Assembly: GCF_009725755.1 (NCBI RefSeq) | Contig: NZ_WNIJ01000005.1 | Span: 1 to 64,000, forward strand | Direction: 5' to 3' | From: Bombella sp. ESL0385 | GTDB taxonomy: Bacteria > Pseudomonadota > Alphaproteobacteria > Acetobacterales > Acetobacteraceae | DNA length: 64,000 nt | Shown: in pieces, positions 19,519 to 34,159 of the stretch | How the letters are laid out: every line of letters begins with the position of its first letter | Numbering within the stretch: the first letter of the stretch is position 1 | Notes under the pieces: generated by a model | The model's input: only the letters and a program-made list of their open reading frames with translations | The model's database searches: none | Told to the model about the DNA's origin: nothing | Translations under genes and position numbers: made by a program

Positions 19519-20595
19519 TTAGGCGAGAATAAACCCACCACCCAGAACACGCTCCCCCTCATACATCACACATGCTTGCCCCGGTGCGGGCAAAGCGGGC
19601 TCTTCGAGCTGAACCTCTGCCCGATTCCCCTCTAAGGGGCGTATAAGGGCTTGACGCAACCCCTCACGCGCGCGTAGCTGCACTCCGCAGCGCACGCCGT
19701 CTGCTGGGGCATCAATCAGCCAATTCATATCCCTTAGCTGGACGATGCGGCGGCTCTCATCATGAATGACCTTCTGACGCGGGCCAACAATAATGCGGCG
19801 GGAAGGCACATCAATCGCCGTGACCATCTGACGTTCCCCCGTACCGGTATGAATATCCCCCAACCGGCGGCTCTGCCCCACAGTGTAACGCGCAATCCCC
19901 TCATGCTGGCCCAGCACATTGCCGTGCTCATCTACAATATCGCCCGGCCCACCAATCTCTGGTCGCATCTTCTCCACCAATGTGGCGTAAGAGCCATTCG
20001 TCACAAAGCAAATATCCTGACTATCGCGCTTTGTCGCCACATCCAGCCCTAGCTCCTCCGCTAAGGCACGGACATGAGCTTTATCGGGCATCTCACCAAG
20101 GGGGAAGCGGAGGAACTCCAACTGTTCCCGCGTTGTGGCAAAGAGAAACCAACTTTGGTCTCTATCCCGATCCACAGGGCGGTGCATCTCCACCCCAGTA
20201 GGGCCCTCAACCCGGCGGACATAATGGCCAGTCGCCATAGCCTCGCAGCCTAAATCCCGCGCCATTGTCAGGAGGTCCGTAAACTTAACGCCCTGATTAC
20301 AAGCCACACAAGGGACAGGGGTTTCTCCCCGGGCGTAAGAATCGGCAAAACTCTCAATAACGCTATCGCGGAAGCGGCTCTCCGCATCAATAACGTAATG
20401 AGGAAAACCGATTTTCTCCGCCACTAAACGCGCATCCATAATGTCCCGCCCTGCACAGCAAGCCCCCGGCTTGGCGGGGCCGCTATGGTCGTAAAGCTGT
20501 AAGGTGGCCCCGATGACCTCGTGGCCTTGCTGCTTGAGCAACGCTGCCACAACAGAACTATCGACCCCACCAGACATAGCTACAAGGATGCGCAT
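19519..20595 (-). CDS. mnmA: tRNA-specific 2-thiouridylase MnmA
   Basis: Adds sulfur to U34 of tRNAs for Lys, Glu and Gln. The N-terminal PP-loop ATPase motif is AMSGGVDSS. Candidate catalytic cysteines lie in TPVPCVACNQGVKF and DSQDICFV. GDIVDEHGNVLGQHEG and the C-terminal beta domain are typical. The frame runs upstream to 20649, but MRILVAMSGG at 20595 is the family start and is preceded by AAGGTAAG (358 aa). It sits beside ferredoxin and cysteine desulfurase genes, the likely sulfur source. Confidence 0.95.
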   Translation of the reverse strand: MRILVAMSGGVDSSVVAALLKQQGHEVIGATLQLYDHSGPAKPGACCAGRDIMDARLVAEKIGFPHYVIDAESRFRDSVIESFADSYARGETPVPCVACNQGVKFTDLLTMARDLGCEAMATGHYVRRVEGPTGVEMHRPVDRDRDQSWFLFATTREQLEFLRFPLGEMPDKAHVRALAEELGLDVATKRDSQDICFVTNGSYATLVEKMRPEIGGPGDIVDEHGNVLGQHEGIARYTVGQSRRLGDIHTGTGERQMVTAIDVPSRRIIVGPRQKVIHDESRRIVQLRDMNWLIDAPADGVRCGVQLRAREGLRQALIRPLEGNRAEVQLEEPALPAPGQACVMYEGERVLGGGFILA

Positions 20596-20605
20596 AACGC
20601 TTACC

Positions 20606-20920
20606 TTACCCCGCTTTGGGAAGATGAACGACAAGGCCATCCAGCTCATCTGTCATGATGATTTGGCAGCCAAGGCGCGATGTTTTCTCCAGCCCAAAGG
20701 CAAGGTCGAGCATATCTTCTTCATCATCGGTTGGGCTGGTGAGTTTATCGGCCCATGCTGGGTCCACGATAACATGGCATGTCGCACATGCTAGGGAGCC
20801 CTCACAGGCTCCTTCAAGGTCGATATTATGCTCATGGGCAATCTCCAAGACGGAGAGACCTGCCTGTGCCTCCACCTCATGGCGGCTACCATCACGCTCA
20901 ACAAAAACCATCCGTGGCAT
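20606..20920 (-). CDS. fdx: [2Fe-2S] ferredoxin (ISC/adrenodoxin type)
   Basis: A 104-aa ferredoxin with cluster ligands in [10 protein letters not shown] and a fourth Cys in RLGCQI, the spacing C-x5-C-x2-C-x~36-C of the Fdx/adrenodoxin family. [15 protein letters not shown] and DEEDMLDLA are hallmark stretches. It probably supplies electrons for Fe-S cluster assembly. It lies between a cysteine desulfurase gene and mnmA on the same strand. Confidence 0.92.
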
Positions 20921-20956: not shown

Positions 20957-22111
20957 TTAACCACCTGTTAAAACCTGCCTAAATTGAGCCACTGCGCGCT
21001 CCACGTCATCTGCTGAGGTAAAGCGTCCGACCGAAAGACGCAAGCTCCTGCGTGCTTCTCTATCGGTCAAGCCCATTGCCTGCAATACATAAGACGGCGC
21101 ACCAGACGCTGCCGAACATGCTGAACCAGCCGAAAAAGCCAGCCCCGGCAGGGATTTCATCAAGTCTTGAGCCTCCGGCCCCTCAGGTAAGCAGCAATTC
21201 AGCACACCCGGCAGATGCGGAGCTTGGCCGCCATTAAGCCGCGCTGTTGGGCAAAGCCTCTGCATAGCCTGCCAAAGCTGGCCGCGCAATGCCATAAGGC
21301 GCGGCACCTCCTCCGGCTGGGCGGCTAGGGCAAGACGTGCAGCGACAGCCATCCCCACAATGAGCGGGACAGGCAATGTGCCAGAGCGCATACCACGCTC
21401 CTGCCCTCCACCAGAGATTAAAGGCAATAGCCGCACACGAGGCCGCCGCCTTATATATAACGCTCCGACCCCTTTAGGGCCGTATAGCTTATGGGCCGAG
21501 AATGAGGCGAGGTCGATCCCCTCTAAACTGCATGGCAATTTGCCGAACATCTGGGCCATATCAACATGCAACAACGTCCCTGCTTGCTTGATAAGCGGCA
21601 TAAGCTGGGGGATGTCGTGGACGATACCTGTCTCGTTATTCGCTGCCATGAGGCTTACAAGCGCGGTTGGTGTTTTTAAGGCCTCGGCTAATCGGTTTGG
21701 CTCTACACGCCCATCAGGCCCTACGGGGAGGATAATAGGCTCAAACCCTTCATCTGCGAGGGAGCGCACAGCCTCCAACACGCATTTATGTTCCGTTGCG
21801 GCTGTAATAACACGCCGTCTTGTATCGCCCTGCGTCTTTAAGAACCGCACCGCCCCTTTTATGGCCAGATTATTGGATTCAGTCGCCCCCGAAGTCCATA
21901 TCACCTCATGAGGACTCACCTGCAAAAGCTGCGCCATCTCTTGGCGGGCCTCCTCTACGGCCTCCTCCGCCGCACGGCCAAGCTGATGCACACTCCCAGC
22001 ATTGCCAAAGGACGCCGTAAAATAAGGCAACATGGCCTCTATAACACGCGGGTCACAGGGGGTTGTCGCGAGGTAATCTAAATAGATAACCTCCTGCTTA
22101 TCCGCCTTCAT
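20957..22111 (-). CDS. Cysteine desulfurase (IscS/NifS family), copy 1
   Basis: A 384-aa PLP enzyme that removes sulfur from cysteine for Fe-S clusters and tRNA thiolation. It starts YLDYLATTPCDPRVIEAM, has the PLP lysine in FSAHKLYGPKG, the pocket histidine in TEHKCVLEA, and the catalytic cysteine in SAGSACSA on the mobile loop. The start overlaps the stop of the upstream paralog by 4 nt. The symbol iscS is plausible, but two paralogs are present so I leave it open. Confidence 0.9.
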   Translation of the reverse strand: MKADKQEVIYLDYLATTPCDPRVIEAMLPYFTASFGNAGSVHQLGRAAEEAVEEARQEMAQLLQVSPHEVIWTSGATESNNLAIKGAVRFLKTQGDTRRRVITAATEHKCVLEAVRSLADEGFEPIILPVGPDGRVEPNRLAEALKTPTALVSLMAANNETGIVHDIPQLMPLIKQAGTLLHVDMAQMFGKLPCSLEGIDLASFSAHKLYGPKGVGALYIRRRPRVRLLPLISGGGQERGMRSGTLPVPLIVGMAVAARLALAAQPEEVPRLMALRGQLWQAMQRLCPTARLNGGQAPHLPGVLNCCLPEGPEAQDLMKSLPGLAFSAGSACSAASGAPSYVLQAMGLTDREARRSLRLSVGRFTSADDVERAVAQFRQVLTGG

Positions 22112-23289
22112 GACGTAGTACGATTATTTTGTAAGAGGCCACGCTCGGCAAATCGCTGCGCCATACGGCTATAAGCCTGCCCAAAGGCACGCACATGCTC
22201 TGCTTGCACATTCCATGGCAGAGAGATGCGAATCGCCTGCCCCGCGCCTTCGCCTTGCCCCATAGCCTCCAACACATGGGAGCGCGCCACTTTGCCGGAT
22301 GAACAGGCCGAGCCAGCAGAGACGCAATAACCCTCGATATCCAAGGCCATAAGCTGCATCTGCGCCGCTACACCGGGTAGAAGGGCACTCACCGTATTCG
22401 GCAAGCGCGGGACGTCACGGCCCATAATGACCGCCCCTGCATGGCAGCAGATGGCCTCTAGCTCATCACGCAATATCTGCAGGCGACTCCATTCTTGCTG
22501 CTGGCTTTCCACCAACGCAGCGGCCATGCTGAGATGCGCTGCAAGGGCGGGGGTACCCCCGCGCCGTCCACGCTCTTGCCCCCCACCGGGAAGAAGGGGG
22601 GGTAAGGGCCGGTCCTCTGGCAGAAGAAGAGCCCCCGCCCCCATTACCCCACCCATCTTATGGGCAGATAAAGCAAGGCTCGCCCCTACTAACGCCCCTG
22701 ACGCCACGGCTTGAGAGAAAGGGTCTGTCCCGCTCATCCGCCCCGCTGCTTGCACCGCATCAATATGCAAATGCGCTCCGTATTGGCGGCATAAAGCGGC
22801 AATATCCTCCAACGGTGCATACACACCCGTCTCATTATTCGCCGCCATAATACATACGAGCGCACCTGCCTCTGCTGCATGAGAGGCAAGCTGTGTTTCC
22901 AAAGCTGCACATTCTATGAGACCATTTTGATCCACCGGAATCACGCATGCCCCCGGCGCGGCTTTACGAATGGCGTCATGCTCGGTCGCACCGATGAGGA
23001 TAGGCCGCCCTATCGCATGGCCAAAACCATGCACGGCAAGCGTATTCGCCTCTGTCCCACCGGAGGTGAACACAAAGCTATCCGCCTCTCGCCCAAAGGT
23101 CCCAGCAAGCTGTTTGCGTGCTTGCTCTAACATCACACGGGCCTTACGCCCTGCTGTATGCACAGAGGCAGGATTACCCAGCTGGGCAAGCCCCTCATTC
23201 AACGCCTGTTGGGCTATGGGGCGTAACGGCTCTGTCGCATTAGCATCCAAATAAAGCAGGTTGTGCTGTGAAGGCGGGGCATGAAGCAT
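22108..23289 (-). CDS. Cysteine desulfurase family protein, copy 2
   Basis: A 393-aa NifS/IscS-family aminotransferase-fold protein, clearly divergent from its neighbour. It keeps the PLP lysine (LSAHKMGG), the pocket histidine (TEHDAIRKA) and the loop cysteine (SAGSACSSGK), so it should be active. It is first in an operon with copy 1 (4-nt overlap), followed by fdx and mnmA. The gene is divergent from an alpha/beta hydrolase across a region with a 19-bp dyad. Confidence 0.87.
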   Translation of the reverse strand: MLHAPPSQHNLLYLDANATEPLRPIAQQALNEGLAQLGNPASVHTAGRKARVMLEQARKQLAGTFGREADSFVFTSGGTEANTLAVHGFGHAIGRPILIGATEHDAIRKAAPGACVIPVDQNGLIECAALETQLASHAAEAGALVCIMAANNETGVYAPLEDIAALCRQYGAHLHIDAVQAAGRMSGTDPFSQAVASGALVGASLALSAHKMGGVMGAGALLLPEDRPLPPLLPGGGQERGRRGGTPALAAHLSMAAALVESQQQEWSRLQILRDELEAICCHAGAVIMGRDVPRLPNTVSALLPGVAAQMQLMALDIEGYCVSAGSACSSGKVARSHVLEAMGQGEGAGQAIRISLPWNVQAEHVRAFGQAYSRMAQRFAERGLLQNNRTTS

Positions 23290-27258: not shown

Positions 27259-27921
27259 TCAAGCGCGGCGTGCGGGGCGGGCTACAGCGCGCATCCCCTC
27301 TATAGCGGCTTTGCGGTCACCCTTACCAAAAATAGCAGAGCCTGCCACGAGCATAGTCGCCCCGGCCTCCGTCACCAACGGGGTTGTGGTTTCATCAATC
27401 CCACCATCAACGCCTAGTGTAATATCCCGCCCGCTCCTACGGATCATCTCTGCAAGGGTGCGGATTTTAGCAAGCTGACCATGCAGGAACTTCTGCCCCC
27501 CAAAACCGGGATTAACCGTCATAACCAAAATAATATCAACCATATCCATCACTTCGGACAAAGCCTCTGGTGGGGTTGCAGGACAAATCGCCACCCCTGC
27601 TTTACAGCCTAAGGCATGGATGGTTTGCAACGTCCGATGCAGGTGAGCATTCCCCTCCACATGCACCGTAATATGGTCTGCTCCCGCTTTGGCTGTGGCT
27701 TCTAAATACGGGTCCACAGGGTCAATCATCAAATGAACATCAAACTTGGCCTGACTATGTGGCCGCAAGGCTTTAATGACGGGCATCCCAAAAGAGATAT
27801 TAGGCACAAAATGCCCATCCATCACATCAAGATGCAACCACGGGGCCTCCACCACCGCGCTCATTTCCTGACGCAGATTAGAGAAATCAGCAGCAAGCAG
27901 GCTCGGTGCAATTATGGGCAT
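27259..27921 (-). CDS. rpe: Ribulose-phosphate 3-epimerase
   Basis: A 220-aa TIM-barrel enzyme of the pentose phosphate pathway interconverting ribulose 5-phosphate and xylulose 5-phosphate. It has IAPSLLAADF, the metal-binding HLDVMDGHFVPN, the phosphate loops VNPGFGGQKF and VDGGI. The frame extends 39 codons upstream, but MPIIAPSL at 27921 is the family start and is preceded by a purine-rich GGGGGT. It diverges from the TPP riboswitch. Confidence 0.95.
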   Translation of the reverse strand: MPIIAPSLLAADFSNLRQEMSAVVEAPWLHLDVMDGHFVPNISFGMPVIKALRPHSQAKFDVHLMIDPVDPYLEATAKAGADHITVHVEGNAHLHRTLQTIHALGCKAGVAICPATPPEALSEVMDMVDIILVMTVNPGFGGQKFLHGQLAKIRTLAEMIRRSGRDITLGVDGGIDETTTPLVTEAGATMLVAGSAIFGKGDRKAAIEGMRAVARPARRA

Positions 27922-28041
27922 AAGACCCCCATTATAAAAAGGACAAAACGCATAGGCTTGATATTGGCAGAAATAGGCATTTTTACAAGAGAGCCTTGCA
28001 CTTGAACAAAAGGGCCTTTCTCTGCTAACGAAGAGCACATG

Positions 28042-28137
28042 TTCCGAGGGGTGCCTTCATCTGCAAGGCTGAGAGGATGGGCAAGGCCATCCAACCCTTT
28101 GAACCTGATCCGGTTCGTACCGGCGAAGGGACAGGAA
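28042..28137 (+). ncRNA. TPP riboswitch (THI-box)
   Basis: The conserved core is all present in order: GGGGTGCC in P1/P2, CTGAGA at 28069-28074, and ACCCTTTGAACCTGATCCGG from 28094, followed by the closing GGCGAAGGGACAGG. It senses thiamine pyrophosphate and normally shuts expression off. It lies 90 nt upstream of a TonB receptor-kinase-PnuT operon. Confidence 0.96.
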
Positions 28138-28191
28138 AATAGCATGGATGGAACACCCCCATCTTCCCCTGAACTAACGCCAGCCCAGCGA

Positions 28192-28217
28192 ACCTTCCCT
28201 ATCGACCTCTCGAAGGT
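28192..28217 (+). promoter_or_regulatory. Candidate SD-sequestering stem (riboswitch expression platform)
   Basis: ACCTTC at 28192-28197 is complementary to GAAGGT at 28212-28217, which overlaps the ribosome-binding site GAAGGTGAAG of the receptor gene. No terminator is seen in the leader, so translational control is the likelier mode. Pairing is by eye only. Confidence 0.45.
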
Positions 28218-28226
28218 GAAGATTCT

Positions 28227-30614
28227 ATGCGCTTATCTTTTTCTGGCTTGCGGGCCCTCCTCTTACTCCCCTTATGTTGCCCCAGCTTAGCCTTGGCTGA
28301 GGAGCAAACAAAAGGCCAACAGACGCACACGCACACACCAACACATCCCACCACCTCACATCCCCATGATGTGCAGGCAAAAGAGGTGGAATATATCACC
28401 ACCCATGCCACAACGGAGGTCACCCAACGCGGTGGGGGGTTAATCCGCCCTCAACATGGCACGCAATCCATCAGTGAGGTGGGCCGTAGCTATATGGATG
28501 TACAAGCCCCTACGGCTTCGGCTTTTCAGCTTGTCTCCATTTTACCCGGTGCAAATGTTGCTACCTCCGACCCTTTTGGCATTTCCCCTAATACGAATAT
28601 CAGTGTCCGTGGGCTAAATGGGGATGCTATTGGCTATGTCTTAGAGGGTATGCCCCTCAATGATATTGCCTCTTATGGTGGGTATCCCAACCAATTTGCT
28701 GATACAGAGAATTACAGCACTGCTGGGCTGCAACAAGGCTCCTCCGACCTGGATAGCCCCGTCCTCAATGCCGCTGGGGGGGTGATGAAACTCTCCTTCC
28801 TAGACCCGGCCTTTAAACCCGGCGGGTTTGCCTCTTTCTCATATGGCTCTTTTAACACGCGGCGCGGCTTCCTCCGGCTTGAGACAGGCGAGATTGGTCA
28901 TAGTGGCGTCCGCGGCTTTGCCTCTTACTCCAACACCCATACTGATAATTGGCGCAGCGGCGGGTACGATACCCGCCAGCATATTGACTTCAAGCTCCTT
29001 AAAGAATGGGGGCAGGACAATCGCGCAAGCCTTGTTGGGTCATGGAACAGGGCCATCACCAGCTATTATCCCTTCACGTCCCTCAAGGATTGGAAAACAT
29101 ACGGCACCCATAGCGGTGCCCTTACCCACCATTATGAACCCGGCGATAATAGCTATAATTACTGGCGGCTTTCCCGCGACCCAGAGGAAACGCTCTATGT
29201 CGGTGCGCCTGTGCATCTGCGCTTTAACCAGCGTTATAGTTTTGACATCACCCCTTATGCTCAAAGTGCTTATGGTAACTTCCCGTACGGCTCCCAGCTC
29301 TCTGGTACAGGCAATTATTATGGCACCCTGCCTGTCTCTTCCCTCCCTTTAACCGATAATCAAACCGTCCGTTCCGAATACACGCAGCGTAGCTATCGCG
29401 CTGGGGTGAATATGGCCTTCCATGCCCGGTATAAATGGAATGATTTCGTCATGGGTTATTGGTATGACTACTCCGATGATAACCAACGCCAGCCCTTTAC
29501 CACCGTTAATGATGATGGAAGTTCGGCCAATATTTGGGGCGATAAACGGCGTGACCGTGTGCTAATGCCCAATGGTAACCCTTACCTTGCGGGGGCCTTT
29601 CATACTATGTCGCAGGTCAATGCGCTGTATATAGGCGACCATATCTCCCTCATGCAGGATAGATTAGCGATGGATATTGGCTTTAAAGAGGTCATGATGC
29701 ATCGTTGGGGAACAAATGACGTCCCCGGCCCTCAGCGGACCATCTCTAGTAATAAAGCCGAACCACTGCCGCGCTTTGGCATGAGGTGGAACTTTACCAA
29801 GCAGGACCAGATCTTCCTCAACGTCAACACCAATTTCCGCGCCCCAACAGCCTCCAGCTATTACAACCAATATGCTGGGACAGATGCGAATGGCAACGCC
29901 AATGGCTCCCTCAGCAAAGCGGGGACAAACCATCTTAAAAATGAATATTCCATCGCAGAGGAGTTCGGCTATCGCCGTACGGGGGAATGGATTACTGCGA
30001 GCGTGACCTTCTTTAACTACAATTTCCGCAATCGGCAGATTAAAACAGGGGAGCCCAATAACCCCAATATCTCCACCTCCATCAATGCGGGGAAACAAAC
30101 CTCACGCGGGGTAGATGTAGAGATTGGCACACGCCCTTGGCATCATCTCAGCCCCTATGCCTCTTTTGAATATCTCCATGCCACCATCGATAGTAACATT
30201 GCCGCTAGGGGGGACCTCCTCCCTACAGCAGGCAAAACGGCTATCCGTAGCCCTCATTTCCAAGCGGGAGCGGGGTTACGCTATGATGATGGACACTTCT
30301 TCAGCATGGTGACGATGCATTATATGAGCCACCAATATGCCACCTTTATGAATGATGAGCGCATCCCTGCCATCATGACGGCAGACCTTGCTTTGGGGTA
30401 CCGCTTTAACAATATCGGCGTACTCCAAAAACCCACCTTGCGCCTGAACCTGAGCAATTTAAGCAATCAACGTTACCTCTCTGGTATTAACAGCACCGCT
30501 TTTAACGCTCATACGACAACCGGCCTGCATGGGACGCGCATTAAAGGCTCCAGCCCTGATTACTTCATCGGCAGTCCCTTTGCCGCCCTTGCAAGCTTTA
30601 CAGCGGGGTTTTGA
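28227..30614 (+). CDS. TonB-dependent outer-membrane receptor, probable thiamine uptake
   Basis: A 795-aa receptor. A signal peptide ends at ALA (about residue 24), followed by a His/Thr-rich stretch (five His between residues 34 and 47). Then comes a plug domain (VSILPGANVATSDPFG, NTNISVRGLNGDAIGYVLEGMPLND) and a long beta-barrel ending in a C-terminal aromatic (TAGF). Substrate assignment comes from context: it is the first gene under the TPP riboswitch and is followed by a kinase and a PnuT-like permease. Energy would come from TonB-ExbBD encoded elsewhere. Confidence 0.88.
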   Translation: MRLSFSGLRALLLLPLCCPSLALAEEQTKGQQTHTHTPTHPTTSHPHDVQAKEVEYITTHATTEVTQRGGGLIRPQHGTQSISEVGRSYMDVQAPTASAFQLVSILPGANVATSDPFGISPNTNISVRGLNGDAIGYVLEGMPLNDIASYGGYPNQFADTENYSTAGLQQGSSDLDSPVLNAAGGVMKLSFLDPAFKPGGFASFSYGSFNTRRGFLRLETGEIGHSGVRGFASYSNTHTDNWRSGGYDTRQHIDFKLLKEWGQDNRASLVGSWNRAITSYYPFTSLKDWKTYGTHSGALTHHYEPGDNSYNYWRLSRDPEETLYVGAPVHLRFNQRYSFDITPYAQSAYGNFPYGSQLSGTGNYYGTLPVSSLPLTDNQTVRSEYTQRSYRAGVNMAFHARYKWNDFVMGYWYDYSDDNQRQPFTTVNDDGSSANIWGDKRRDRVLMPNGNPYLAGAFHTMSQVNALYIGDHISLMQDRLAMDIGFKEVMMHRWGTNDVPGPQRTISSNKAEPLPRFGMRWNFTKQDQIFLNVNTNFRAPTASSYYNQYAGTDANGNANGSLSKAGTNHLKNEYSIAEEFGYRRTGEWITASVTFFNYNFRNRQIKTGEPNNPNISTSINAGKQTSRGVDVEIGTRPWHHLSPYASFEYLHATIDSNIAARGDLLPTAGKTAIRSPHFQAGAGLRYDDGHFFSMVTMHYMSHQYATFMNDERIPAIMTADLALGYRFNNIGVLQKPTLRLNLSNLSNQRYLSGINSTAFNAHTTTGLHGTRIKGSSPDYFIGSPFAALASFTAGF

Positions 30615-30616
30615 GC

Positions 30617-31741
30617 ATGTCTGCACGCCCCCTTGGCTTAGAGAGCGGCTATAATAGCTGTGTGTGGCCCGCCCTTACGCGCGCTGATGTAGCAACTCTC
30701 TTGCCTCATTGGGGCATGCATCCCGCTAACGATCCTATCCTCTGGCATAGCCAGCGGCCCTTTTCTGCCTCGGCCATCATCGCGTTGCAGGATGGCCAGC
30801 ATATTTTCCTCAAACGGCATGGGCGGGCTTTGCGCTCCGCCCGCACAGTGACAGAGGAACATCGCTTTGCCCAACATCTCGCAGCGCAAGGGCTAGCCGT
30901 ATGCGCCCCACTCCCCATGGAGGATGGCACCACCGCCAAAGCAGAAGGGCATTATGTTTATGAGGCCTTTCCCCTCTTTACCGAGCACGATGCTTATCGC
31001 GGGCTTGAATCATGGCGGCCTTATAAAAGCACGCCCCAAGCGGACTCTAGCGGGCGGCTCCTTGCCCAATTACATCACGCTAGTGCGGGGTATGACGCGC
31101 CCCCGCGCCATAATCCCCCCCTCACCTCCATCCGCCATCCCCTGCTCGGGCCATCCTTAGACGATACACTCCTCCCTTGGGCAGCACAGCAAAAGGGCCT
31201 TACATCACTTTACTCCCTTGAGGATGTACGCTCTGACGTTCTGCCCCTTTTAGAGCCATTTCATCAGACCTTACGCCCCCTCTTACCGCATGACCGCCCC
31301 CTTTGGGGACATGGTGATTGGCATGGGGCAAATCTCTTATGGCAGAATGAGGGGCAAGACCTCACCGCCGTGCGTATCTTCGATTTCGGCATGTGTGACC
31401 AAACCAGTGCCGCTTTTGACCTCGCCGTGGCGATAGAGCGTAGCTTCATTAGCTGGCTCGCCCCTGACGGCTCCCCCACCGTGCATGAGGAGCAGCTACG
31501 CGCCTTCCTCCACGCTTATGATGCCCAACGCCCAAGAAGCCTCGTAGAACGACACCTCACAGCACGCTGGCTCCCCCTCTGCCATGTGACCTTTGCCCTC
31601 TCTGAAACGGCTTATTACGGCCATACGCTCCATAACCAAGCAGCGGCAGAGATTTCTTGGCGGGATTATCTCATCGGCCATGCAGAATGGTTCCATTCCC
31701 CCACAGGGCGTACCCTCCTAAACATGTTGGAGGCATGTTAA
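30617..31741 (+). CDS. APH-fold small-molecule kinase, probable thiamine kinase
   Basis: A 374-aa protein of the aminoglycoside phosphotransferase/choline kinase fold. An N-terminal lobe has the ATP-binding lysine in HIFLKRHGRAL. The catalytic loop is GHGDWHGANLLW and the metal-binding motif is IFDFGM. Related enzymes phosphorylate thiamine, choline or homoserine. Its place between a TPP-riboswitch-controlled receptor and a PnuT-type permease supports thiamine (inference). A TTG at 30611 could also start it; the ATG at 30617 is preferred. It begins 3 nt after the receptor stop. Confidence 0.8.
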   Translation: MSARPLGLESGYNSCVWPALTRADVATLLPHWGMHPANDPILWHSQRPFSASAIIALQDGQHIFLKRHGRALRSARTVTEEHRFAQHLAAQGLAVCAPLPMEDGTTAKAEGHYVYEAFPLFTEHDAYRGLESWRPYKSTPQADSSGRLLAQLHHASAGYDAPPRHNPPLTSIRHPLLGPSLDDTLLPWAAQQKGLTSLYSLEDVRSDVLPLLEPFHQTLRPLLPHDRPLWGHGDWHGANLLWQNEGQDLTAVRIFDFGMCDQTSAAFDLAVAIERSFISWLAPDGSPTVHEEQLRAFLHAYDAQRPRSLVERHLTARWLPLCHVTFALSETAYYGHTLHNQAAAEISWRDYLIGHAEWFHSPTGRTLLNMLEAC

Positions 31742-32281
31742 ATGATGGAGCTTATCGCTGCATGCTTTAGTGCAAGTGGGGTATGGCTAACCGCCCAACG
31801 CTGCCTCATCGGCTGGCCAATTTCCCTCCTAGCGACCTTTCTTTATGGCTGGGTCTTTTTCCATGCCCGCCTTTATGCCGATACCATATTGCAAGGGGTG
31901 TTTAGCCTCACCATCCTTTATGGCTGGGCTTTATGGGCACGGGATAAAGCACGGCAAAACACCCTCCCGCCCCAGCCGCTGGCCCTCAAAAAAGCCATCA
32001 TAGAGACGCTTGGCTTTTTTATCCTCTCCACCTTATGGGTTATAGCCCTGCGCTGTTGGAGTGACGACCCAGCCCCCCTCCTTGATGGCGGCCTAAGCGG
32101 GGCCAGCTTACTCGCCCAATTATGGACCGCACGGCGGCACCGCATAAGCTGGCTGCTCTGGGCAGGGATTGATGTAATTTATACAGGGCTTTTCTTCAGC
32201 CGTTCGCTCAGCATTACCGCTTTGCTTTACGGGGGCTATACCCTTCTCGGCCTCTATGGCTATTGGCGGTGGAAGGCCTAA
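31742..32281 (+). CDS. pnuT: PnuC-family permease, probable thiamine transporter PnuT
   Basis: A 179-aa membrane protein with about six or seven helices. Both PnuC signatures are visible: WPISLLATFLYGWVFF leading into LYADTILQGVFSLTILYGW, and a C-terminal WAGIDVIYTGLFF repeat ending in YGYWRW. PnuC proteins carry nicotinamide riboside, and the branch under TPP riboswitches (PnuT) is assigned to thiamine. Facilitated entry would be locked in by the adjacent kinase. The start ATG directly follows the kinase stop (TAAATG). Confidence 0.85.
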   Translation: MMELIAACFSASGVWLTAQRCLIGWPISLLATFLYGWVFFHARLYADTILQGVFSLTILYGWALWARDKARQNTLPPQPLALKKAIIETLGFFILSTLWVIALRCWSDDPAPLLDGGLSGASLLAQLWTARRHRISWLLWAGIDVIYTGLFFSRSLSITALLYGGYTLLGLYGYWRWKA

Positions 32282-32295
32282 AAAGCGACGACCCT

Positions 32296-32655
32296 TTATT
32301 GGGTCATCCGGTCCAGCTCCTCAGGGGTGAGACGCTGAATCCGCACCGCTTTACCTGTGGAATCATAATAGACAATCGCCGCACCGCGCCGCTCGGCATA
32401 GCCATCAGGCACGCCACTCTTTTTACGAAAAATCAACCGCCCATGCTCTGGCTGAATCGTCACCTCATCCCCGCGTGGGACAAAATGGAACATGCTGTAA
32501 TCAGCATGAACACGCGGCAAGCTGGTTTTGGGCATGGGCTTACGCACAACACTATCTAGCCCATCAGCCCCATCATCAGCATAACTAAGCCCCGCACTGC
32601 CTATCATCAGAGCCATCAGCCCTAGCCCTAAACCGAGCGTCTTTACCAAACCCAT
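32296..32655 (-). CDS. Small periplasmic protein of unknown function
   Basis: A 119-aa protein with a signal peptide (MGLVKTLGLGLGLMALMIGSAGLSYADD). The mature part is short and has no family I recognise. RHADYS-like and PEHGRLIFRKKSG stretches suggest a small beta-rich fold. The frame opens upstream at 32730 inside the efflux gene. I use the ATG at 32655, which has GAGGAGAG upstream and begins the signal peptide. It sits at the end of the RND efflux operon. Confidence 0.7.
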   Translation of the reverse strand: MGLVKTLGLGLGLMALMIGSAGLSYADDGADGLDSVVRKPMPKTSLPRVHADYSMFHFVPRGDEVTIQPEHGRLIFRKKSGVPDGYAERRGAAIVYYDSTGKAVRIQRLTPEELDRMTQ

Positions 32656-32692
32656 TGCCTCTCTCCTCACCCACCGCAATGCGGCGCGTACG

Positions 32693-34159
32693 TTACTTCT
32701 GCCCTTGGCTCTTACGGCTCCACCCCCCACCTAATGCACGATAGAGGGTTACCATATTTTGGAACCGTGCCGCCTCCACAACAATACGGCTCTGCTGGGC
32801 TTGGTAAAGCTGACGCTCCTGCACCAAGGTGGTTAGATAATTATCGATCCCCGCATGATAGCGCATCCGGGCGAGGTCGTAAGCCCGTTGGGTTTGTGTC
32901 TCTAAAACAACCATATGTTCATCTTGCCGGCGATAAGTCTCCCGCGCTGTCAACGCATCGGATACTTCTCGAAATGCCGATTGCACGGCTTTTTGATATT
33001 GCGCCACATTCTGCGCAAGCCGTGCTTTTGCTGTCCGTAAGTTCCCCTGATTCACACCCCATGTGAGCAAGGGGATGCTTATATTAGGGGAGACACCCCA
33101 TGTTTCTGCCAAATGGCTAAAGAGCTTGCGAAATTGCAGCGAGCTTGTCCCCTCATTCGCTGTAAGGGTTACCCGTGGGAAAAAGGCCGCCCGCGCCGCA
33201 CCAACGGAGGCATTCGCCCCCAATAGCAGATGCTCTGCAGCCATAATATCAGGCCGTTGCTCTAAAAGGTCGGACGGCAAACCCGCCGGTAATTCCGCAA
33301 TCATCGTTTGTCGGCCCATCGGCAAAGCCGGGGGCAGATTCGCCGGCAAGGGCGTGCCGACTAAAAGTTGTAAGGAATGTTCATCATCAGCAACGGCCCG
33401 CGTCTCTTTCTCCTCATCAGAGCGTGCTTGCTCTAACTCCGCCGCACTTTGGGCGAGAGTGAGCGCATCTAACTCATCATGCTTAAACTTAAGGTCATTC
33501 AACCGCCATGTATCGGCCCGCGTCCGCGCTGTATTGCGCGCAAGGTCTAGCAATCGCTTATCAGCCAACCATTGAATATACGTGCTTGCCACCTGCGAAA
33601 CTGTCGTCAGCCACAGGTTACGCAGATTCTCAGCCGCACTTAATGTTTGCTCCTGCTGGGCGCGCGCCATATTGCGAATACGCCCCCATAGGTCAATCTC
33701 GTAAGATGAGAACCCAATGGATGTCTGATAAAAACGCAATGTAGAAATTGAGCGACCAGAACCCGGCGCAAAGGCAAAGCCCGCCGTATCCGATGGCCCC
33801 ACATATTGGGCTCCCCCACCAGCCGAAATGGTCGGGAAAAGGGCGGCATTCTGTACTTGATACTGCCCACGCTCTGCCGCGACTGCCGCCATCTGCGCGG
33901 CGAGGTCTCGGTTATTGGTCAAAGCCAGAGTGATAAGGGCCTTTAAGCGGGGGTCTGTAAAGAAATCCTCCCACCCAAGGTCGGAGACACGCTGATGTAC
34001 CGGCTGGCCAGGCTTTAACTCCGCATCGGCTGGGTATTTCTGCGCAACGGCGGGGTCTGGGCGGTGATATTTCGGGGATAAATTGCACGAGGCAAGCAGC
34101 ATACTGCCCACAGCCATCACCCCGTAAGTGAGGCTCCGTTTTGTGCTATAAAGGCTCAT
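32693..34159 (-). CDS. Outer-membrane efflux lipoprotein (OprM/NodT family)
   Basis: A 488-aa TolC-like channel. The lipobox is LLASC (Cys near residue 25), followed by CNLSPKYHRPDP, the usual opening of this family. Two internally similar outer-membrane-efflux repeats follow, with DPRLKALITLALTNNRDL in the first and LGANASVGAARAAFFPRVTL in the second. It is the exit duct of the tripartite pump, overlapping the RND pump gene by 4 nt. Confidence 0.93.
   Translation of the reverse strand: MSLYSTKRSLTYGVMAVGSMLLASCNLSPKYHRPDPAVAQKYPADAELKPGQPVHQRVSDLGWEDFFTDPRLKALITLALTNNRDLAAQMAAVAAERGQYQVQNAALFPTISAGGGAQYVGPSDTAGFAFAPGSGRSISTLRFYQTSIGFSSYEIDLWGRIRNMARAQQEQTLSAAENLRNLWLTTVSQVASTYIQWLADKRLLDLARNTARTRADTWRLNDLKFKHDELDALTLAQSAAELEQARSDEEKETRAVADDEHSLQLLVGTPLPANLPPALPMGRQTMIAELPAGLPSDLLEQRPDIMAAEHLLLGANASVGAARAAFFPRVTLTANEGTSSLQFRKLFSHLAETWGVSPNISIPLLTWGVNQGNLRTAKARLAQNVAQYQKAVQSAFREVSDALTARETYRRQDEHMVVLETQTQRAYDLARMRYHAGIDNYLTTLVQERQLYQAQQSRIVVEAARFQNMVTLYRALGGGWSRKSQGQK

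Follow-up and report, generated by a model that had tools for sequence, protein, structure and literature searches.

Which compound do three genes behind a TPP riboswitch in Bombella sp. ESL0385 import, and what does the kinase among them phosphorylate? The genes lie on the forward strand of the 64,000-nucleotide stretch analysed here (the window) and encode, in order, a TonB-dependent outer-membrane receptor (28227-30614, 795 aa), an APH-fold small-molecule kinase (30617-31741, 374 aa), and a PnuC-family permease (31742-32281, 179 aa). Two bases separate the receptor stop codon from the kinase ATG and none separate the kinase stop codon from the permease ATG; a TTG at 30611 is an alternative possible kinase start. 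The flanking long ORFs, an rpe-like one upstream (27259-28038) and another downstream (32296-32730), are both on the opposite strand, so the receptor-kinase-permease unit stands alone. The names of neighboring genes are our readings of the translations, as are those of two tandem NifS/IscS-like ORFs (20957-23289) beside an mnmA-like gene (19519-20649) elsewhere in the window. The initial annotation had described a TPP riboswitch ahead of a tightly packed trio of these families, with no thiamine-synthesis genes nearby. The riboswitch, packing, and gene families were all confirmed, and reading through the window's ORFs of at least 150 aa by eye turned up no thi gene.

We consider it probable, with good confidence, that these genes form a thiamine-salvage operon under TPP feedback. 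Low TPP would cause the riboswitch to permit expression; the TonB-dependent receptor would then pull scarce thiamine over the outer membrane, the PnuT-like permease would equilibrate it over the inner membrane, and the APH-fold kinase would trap it as thiamine monophosphate (TMP). ThiL, encoded elsewhere, would make TPP, and TPP would shut the switch. The analysis establishes the riboswitch (through its family model), the families and order of the genes, their conservation, and the absence of the synthesis genes; the parts of this scheme that we infer are the handling of thiamine by each protein, the stop at TMP, and a translational switch. In this Bombella, which by gene content lacks thiamine synthesis, the operon may be the main or sole supply of vitamin B1.

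The riboswitch aptamer (THI element; 28037-28149, forward strand) matched RF00059 over the full model (positions 1-105) with 78.6 bits (gathering score 54.3, E 7.8e-14) and was the sole TPP match in the Bombella genome at E <=0.001. The leader that follows (28150-28226) is the probable expression platform. In an alignment of 14 leaders (the window's, 10 from the Bombella genus, and three from Saccharibacter), the segment CCTGAACTRACGC was kept in 13 despite much leader variation; the L122 leader carries CCTGGACTGACGC in its place. The ends of this segment could base-pair with the aptamer's final portion (GGCG...CAGG), and a predicted hairpin pairs the bases immediately before the start codon in all 14 leaders (mean pairing probability 0.71-0.88). 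Leader folding z-scores were modest, from -0.6 to -3.1. Our guess from these predicted structures is that the riboswitch might act on translation, with the hairpin covering the ribosome-binding region and with TPP binding and gene control being predicted properties. The Gluconobacter leader, inspected by eye in 14 of the 18 riboswitch-bearing loci, is unlike that of Bombella, and the anti-aptamer pairing that we propose for Bombella and Saccharibacter therefore does not apply generally.

Judging by gene content, this Bombella seems unable to make thiamine. The initial annotation had pointed to thiC, thiE, and thiL as the genes to look for, and in this genome (1.90 Mb, rated 100% complete) ThiL alone of the three was found over its cut-off (291.7 bits, cut-off 184), at G000:C1:1023727-1024665, away from the operon. 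ThiC had no match, and the best matches for ThiE (TMP-TENI, 24.4 bits, cut-off 27), ThiG (20.8 bits, cut-off 23), and ThiM (21.2 bits, cut-off 27) were all under threshold; the 192-aa protein behind the TMP-TENI match scored at most 18.5 bits against the NCBIfam thiamine-phosphate-synthase models, whose cut-offs are at least 145. Thiamine pyrophosphokinase (PF04263) was absent from all 36 genomes searched, the window's own included. The substrate of ThiL is TMP, and with neither ThiE nor a pyrophosphokinase this TMP has to be either supplied externally or produced by a thiamine kinase. A pyrophosphokinase-type kinase in a genome without synthesis would make ThiL dispensable. The salvage route had been called complete; its receptor-permease-kinase part is well supported by context, but ThiL, encoded elsewhere, is also needed, as the kinase most likely yields the monophosphate only.

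The same analysis was extended over 11 Bombella genomes. ThiL and the riboswitch operon were found in all 11, and thiC was unbroken in three, broken in one, and without a match in seven. A second TPP element occurred in exactly the four genomes with an intact or broken thiC, where it adjoins thiC. We also observed a decaying thi operon in one Bombella genome (G001:C1:288139-290510, a region contained in L106), in which the TPP element was still matched, thiC was broken by a stop, thiG had no match over the cut-off, and thiE was in two pieces. The loss of thiamine synthesis in the genus seems to be recent and ongoing. A 2023 Commensalibacter paper credits Bombella genomes, in a passing remark, with complete sets of genes for vitamins B2, B3, B5, B6, and B9, and thiamine is unlisted in that passage (PMC10149009).

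The kinase matched the APH family (PF01636, 75.3 bits, cut-off 23.2) and carries the HGDWHGAN and IFDFG motifs. Residues K66, H232, D234, H236, N239, and D256 were conserved in all 62 rows of the kinase alignment, the window's included, and the G of DFG was kept in 58 of them. An AlphaFold2 model from this alignment (mean pLDDT 91.8) has an APH-type small-molecule kinase fold. Its first matches in a structure search were tied and led by homoserine kinase 2ppq (Z 25.6, 306 residues, 3.8 A); amicoumacin kinase 6sum and N-acetylhexosamine 1-kinase 4ocu (both Z 24.7) were the tied next ones. No thiamine kinase was among the 50 fold rows listed in either structure search, a result that excludes nothing, and no solved thiamine kinase was among the matches listed in the kinase sequence searches, which is no proof of anything either. 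The nearest relatives were proteins of Parasaccharibacter apium AS1 (99% identity) and Bombella saccharophila (98%), with the next named Bombella species at 71-73%. The kinase most likely turns thiamine into TMP, an assignment drawn from the pathway hole and the context rather than the fold.

Several known identities were tried for this protein, which was over the cut-off in no NCBIfam model. Comparison with homoserine kinases had been suggested in the initial annotation, and that identity was rejected: the scores fell far below the cut-offs (thrB_alt, 32.9 vs. 271; PRK05231, 23.2 vs. 255.9), and a separate true homoserine kinase (400.9 bits, cut-off 271; G000:C1:1300584-1301273) is, with the operon kinase, one of the two APH proteins found in the genome. 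A thiamine pyrophosphokinase was rejected on the lack of a PF04263 match at E <=1 and the retention of ThiL. Membership in the family of E. coli ThiK (b1106) was rejected as well, since no significant relation was found by BLASTP (E 1.1) or profile comparison (hhalign probability 0.6%). The two proteins share the APH-type HxDxxxxN loop in weak alignments and the expected route from thiamine to TMP and then ThiL, but they differ in length (374 aa in Bombella, 274 aa in ThiK) and in gene neighbors. The newer part of the operon is the kinase family, which has no name; thiamine is its putative substrate.

The permease matched PF04973 (131.7 bits, cut-off 27.3) and also passed the NCBI nicotinamide riboside transporter model, TIGR01528 (59.8 bits, cut-off 42.45). 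A 12-sequence permease profile matched the nicotinamide riboside transporter structure 4qtn (63.6 bits), the sole solved relative found. The likeness of the permease to PnuT of Shewanella woodyi and to the PnuC family is at family level, through PF04973 membership; PnuT is cited as a thiamin transporter in PMC7749635. We take the permease to be a probable PnuT, a thiamine facilitator, on the grounds of the TPP riboswitch and the cassette; the association with TPP riboswitches in several lineages is indirect evidence. PnuT acts as a facilitated-diffusion carrier and is not known to accept phosphorylated thiamine, so a kinase is needed for trapping.

The receptor passed the Pfam cut-offs for both the plug (PF07715, 27.8 bits, cut-off 23.9) and the barrel (PF00593, 100.5 bits, cut-off 27). 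Over cut-off, it matched generic TonB models only in Pfam and NCBIfam, and it had no match to the siderophore-receptor model TIGR01783. Its context makes it a probable thiamine receptor. Histidine and threonine abound in its N-terminal part (window 28299-28370; HTHTPTHPTTSHPHD), and this composition raises the possibility of putative metal binding. The receptors of L030 and L031, read by eye, start without such a stretch.

We evaluated the conservation of the cassette by scanning named genomes with the kinase alignment. This confirmed 173 loci, and the counts given here cover the best 80, that is, the nearest relatives. A PnuC-family protein was at most 0.8 kb from the kinase, or fused to it, in 73 of the best 80 of 173 loci; the seven without one nearby were the Herbaspirillum loci. 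The fusion, a 637-aa permease-kinase protein of Robbsia andropogonis (L175:5224-7137), passed the cut-offs for both PF04973 and PF01636 and also matched TIGR01528 (81 bits). Of the 60 loci from Acetobacteraceae and Zymomonas, 58 had a receptor of the window's type upstream, the ones in pieces in L170 and L178 included; L143 and L148 had none. All 17 of the 20 Burkholderiales loci that were inspected by eye had a TonB-receptor-like ORF upstream, and five Burkholderiales receptors were confirmed by family models, in a subfamily other than the window's. The Collimonas cassette receptor, for example, scored 426.6 bits against TIGR01783 and only 27.7 bits against the window receptor by BLASTP. In four loci of the Paraburkholderia group (L161, L162, L163, and L165), an NMT1/THI5-like gene was seen by eye between receptor and permease, and the two products tested passed Pfam with 191.4 and 187.5 bits.

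Kinase matches were also found in 35 plasmid records, 25 of them from Acinetobacter. The order in the two Acinetobacter records opened was kinase, receptor, permease, and almost the full length of the Acinetobacter variabilis kinase aligned with the family (probability 100%). Two Acinetobacter plasmids (L208:2534-6561 and L212:6971-10998) hold the kinase, a siderophore-type receptor, and the PnuC gene together, and no TPP element was found there. Elsewhere, the cassette of G019 contains a 140-aa ORF without a Pfam match between kinase and permease (L029:4973-5392), with a gene for a nucleoside hydrolase (PF01156, 336.9 bits) downstream (L029:2969-3991).

Among 150 Acetobacteraceae genomes, the kinase (E <=1e-30) was found in 25 and PnuC (E <=1e-10) in 24; both were present in 21, the kinase alone in four, and PnuC alone in three (Fisher p about 1e-18, with relatedness ignored). 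The kinase search scored at most 13 candidates per genome. By coordinates, the two genes were about 500 bases apart or less in all 21 genomes that have both. In G160, one of the four kinase genomes without a PnuC match, the kinase is at a contig end. At G158:C1:705641-706706 the PnuC match is intact but the kinase match next to it is split in two, which indicates a broken or misassembled kinase gene, and another Acetobacteraceae genome without an operon-type kinase has two tandem PnuC-family matches (G063:C1:1326130-1327290).

The distribution of TPP elements was surveyed with a covariance model built from 20 elements, five of which came from Bombella-genus copies of the operon besides the window's own. 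An element was ahead of the cassette in 31 of the best 80 of 173 loci: 10 of 10 in the Bombella genus, 3 of 3 in Saccharibacter, 18 of 19 in Gluconobacter, and none of the 48 others. The 49 loci in which none was found include all those from Acetobacter, Asaia, Zymomonas, and Burkholderiales plus one from Gluconobacter; two of the 49, L137 and L145, have sequences that end before the leader. Rfam confirmed one Saccharibacter locus (69.1 bits) and three Gluconobacter loci (64.0-70.7 bits). It found no TPP element in the nine of the 49 loci that were rechecked or at the cassettes of G018, G019, G032, and G035; G018 and G019 have one elsewhere, near thiC. Among the plasmid loci, elements were found at four of five Sphingomonadales cassettes (the two given to Rfam passed with 66.4 and 69.6 bits), the covariance model giving none at that of Novosphingobium capsulatum, and at none of the four Burkholderia and Acinetobacter loci. 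In a 44-row kinase tree with a midpoint root, the Sphingomonadales and Acetobacteraceae members were far apart, so the link to thiamine appears at two distant places. The lack of a TPP element in Acetobacter, Asaia, Zymomonas, Burkholderiales, and Acinetobacter is a genuine gap, and the case for thiamine in these groups is built on homology and the structure of the cassette.

The thiamine route is supported by the single TPP riboswitch, the missing synthesis genes, the retained ThiL, the conserved cassette, the permease-kinase fusion, and the Sphingomonadales riboswitch. Homoserine kinase being the only other APH protein found in the genome, the co-occurrence of kinase and PnuC, the NMT1/THI5-like gene of the Paraburkholderia group, and the Bacteroidetes precedent also speak for it. 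Against it stand the TIGR01528 pass, the 49 of 80 loci without a TPP element, the lack of a significant ThiK match, the generic receptor models, the nicotinamidase neighbor of the Sphingomonas cassette and the nucleoside hydrolase neighbor of the G019 cassette, and the four of 25 kinase genomes without a PnuC match. Some of these points bear on import of nicotinamide riboside (NR) or another nucleoside-like vitamin, in which the receptor and PnuC protein would carry NR, the kinase would convert it to NMN, and the thiamine switch would have captured the operon for other reasons in the TPP-riboswitch lineages. The permease is over the TIGR01528 cut-off, the Sphingomonas, N. capsulatum, and Acinetobacter records annotate theirs as an NR transporter, and a nicotinamidase gene is close to the Sphingomonas cassette, on the opposite strand. 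Riboswitch class, however, is said in PMC7749635 to be able to predict the substrate of PnuC-like transporters. TPP riboswitches precede the cassette in Bombella, Saccharibacter, Gluconobacter, and Sphingomonadales, an NMT1/THI5-like gene lies inside the Paraburkholderia cassettes, and no NadR-type domain was among the family matches of the permease or the kinase. We regard NR import as very unlikely.

TPP riboswitches control precursor transporters too, and the NMT1/THI5-like protein of the Paraburkholderia cassettes would also fit import of thiamine precursors (HMP or thiazole) or breakdown products, with the kinase phosphorylating those. In a genome without ThiE or ThiM over the cut-off, though, precursors by themselves should not give TPP, and we place this reading level with NR import or marginally below it. 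That the kinase is pyrophosphokinase-like and takes thiamine to TPP in one step is highly improbable: it occupies the place of Tnr3 in the Bacteroidetes operons (PMC5613172, in part), but it has an APH fold without a TPK domain, and ThiL is present in 11 of 11 Bombella genomes. We give the least credence to a kinase unrelated to the vitamin, such as a resistance or homoserine kinase, that is in the operon by chance. Homoserine and amicoumacin kinases are among its sequence and structure neighbors, but its proximity to PnuC in 73 of the best 80 loci, the gene fusion, the co-occurrence over 150 genomes, and the separate true homoserine kinase all argue against chance.

Salvage of thiamine by such an operon has parallels in known systems. 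Tnr3, which appears in one of them, is a thiamine pyrophosphokinase. Most of the gut Bacteroidetes genomes examined in PMC5613172 have OMthi, pnuT, and tnr3 as one operon, according to the sections cited here. This operon combines a TPP riboswitch, a TonB-dependent receptor, PnuT, and a thiamine-phosphorylating enzyme, and that of Bombella would function in the same way with its corresponding parts. The two differ in lineage and in the enzyme, which is Tnr3 in Bacteroidetes and an APH-fold kinase that needs ThiL in Bombella. The same sections describe B. thetaiotaomicron, in whose wild-type background single deletion of the receptor or PnuT had no growth effect and whose double transporter mutant had a severe growth phenotype; this species also synthesizes thiamine, whereas Bombella, by gene content, does not. 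TonB receptors co-localized with PnuT were already described in 2009 as putative, unproven thiamin transporters (PMC2771747, in part). A Variovorax operon provides a proteobacterial case of a TonB receptor and thiamine permease under a TPP riboswitch, but it is inside a biosynthetic thi operon, and the section consulted mentions no APH kinase (PMC10409787). The three-part combination, which the initial annotation had proposed as new, is thus not new as an idea, because the receptor-PnuT-Tnr3 operons precede it. An APH-type kinase in a receptor-PnuT operon was not among the matches listed in our literature search, which was thin on subscription papers.

In our judgment it is likely, at somewhat lower confidence than the salvage reading itself, that the kinase founds an unnamed thiamine-kinase family that feeds ThiL. 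The kinase and PnuT would be a two-gene core that travels as a unit, has been fused on one occasion, and has become distributed among alpha-, beta-, and gammaproteobacteria, in part on plasmids, with two dissimilar TonB-receptor subfamilies attached. The database records opened name the parts "phosphotransferase," "TonB-dependent siderophore receptor," and "nicotinamide riboside transporter," and thiamine scavenging may be overlooked under such names. The proposed function would correct these misleading automatic names in proteobacterial genomes and plasmids, and it gives a widespread, nameless kinase a testable assignment. It also accounts for how ThiL could be of use to bee symbionts that apparently require thiamine and do not produce it. 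The value of the finding is in the kinase family and in an apparent auxotroph in which to test it.
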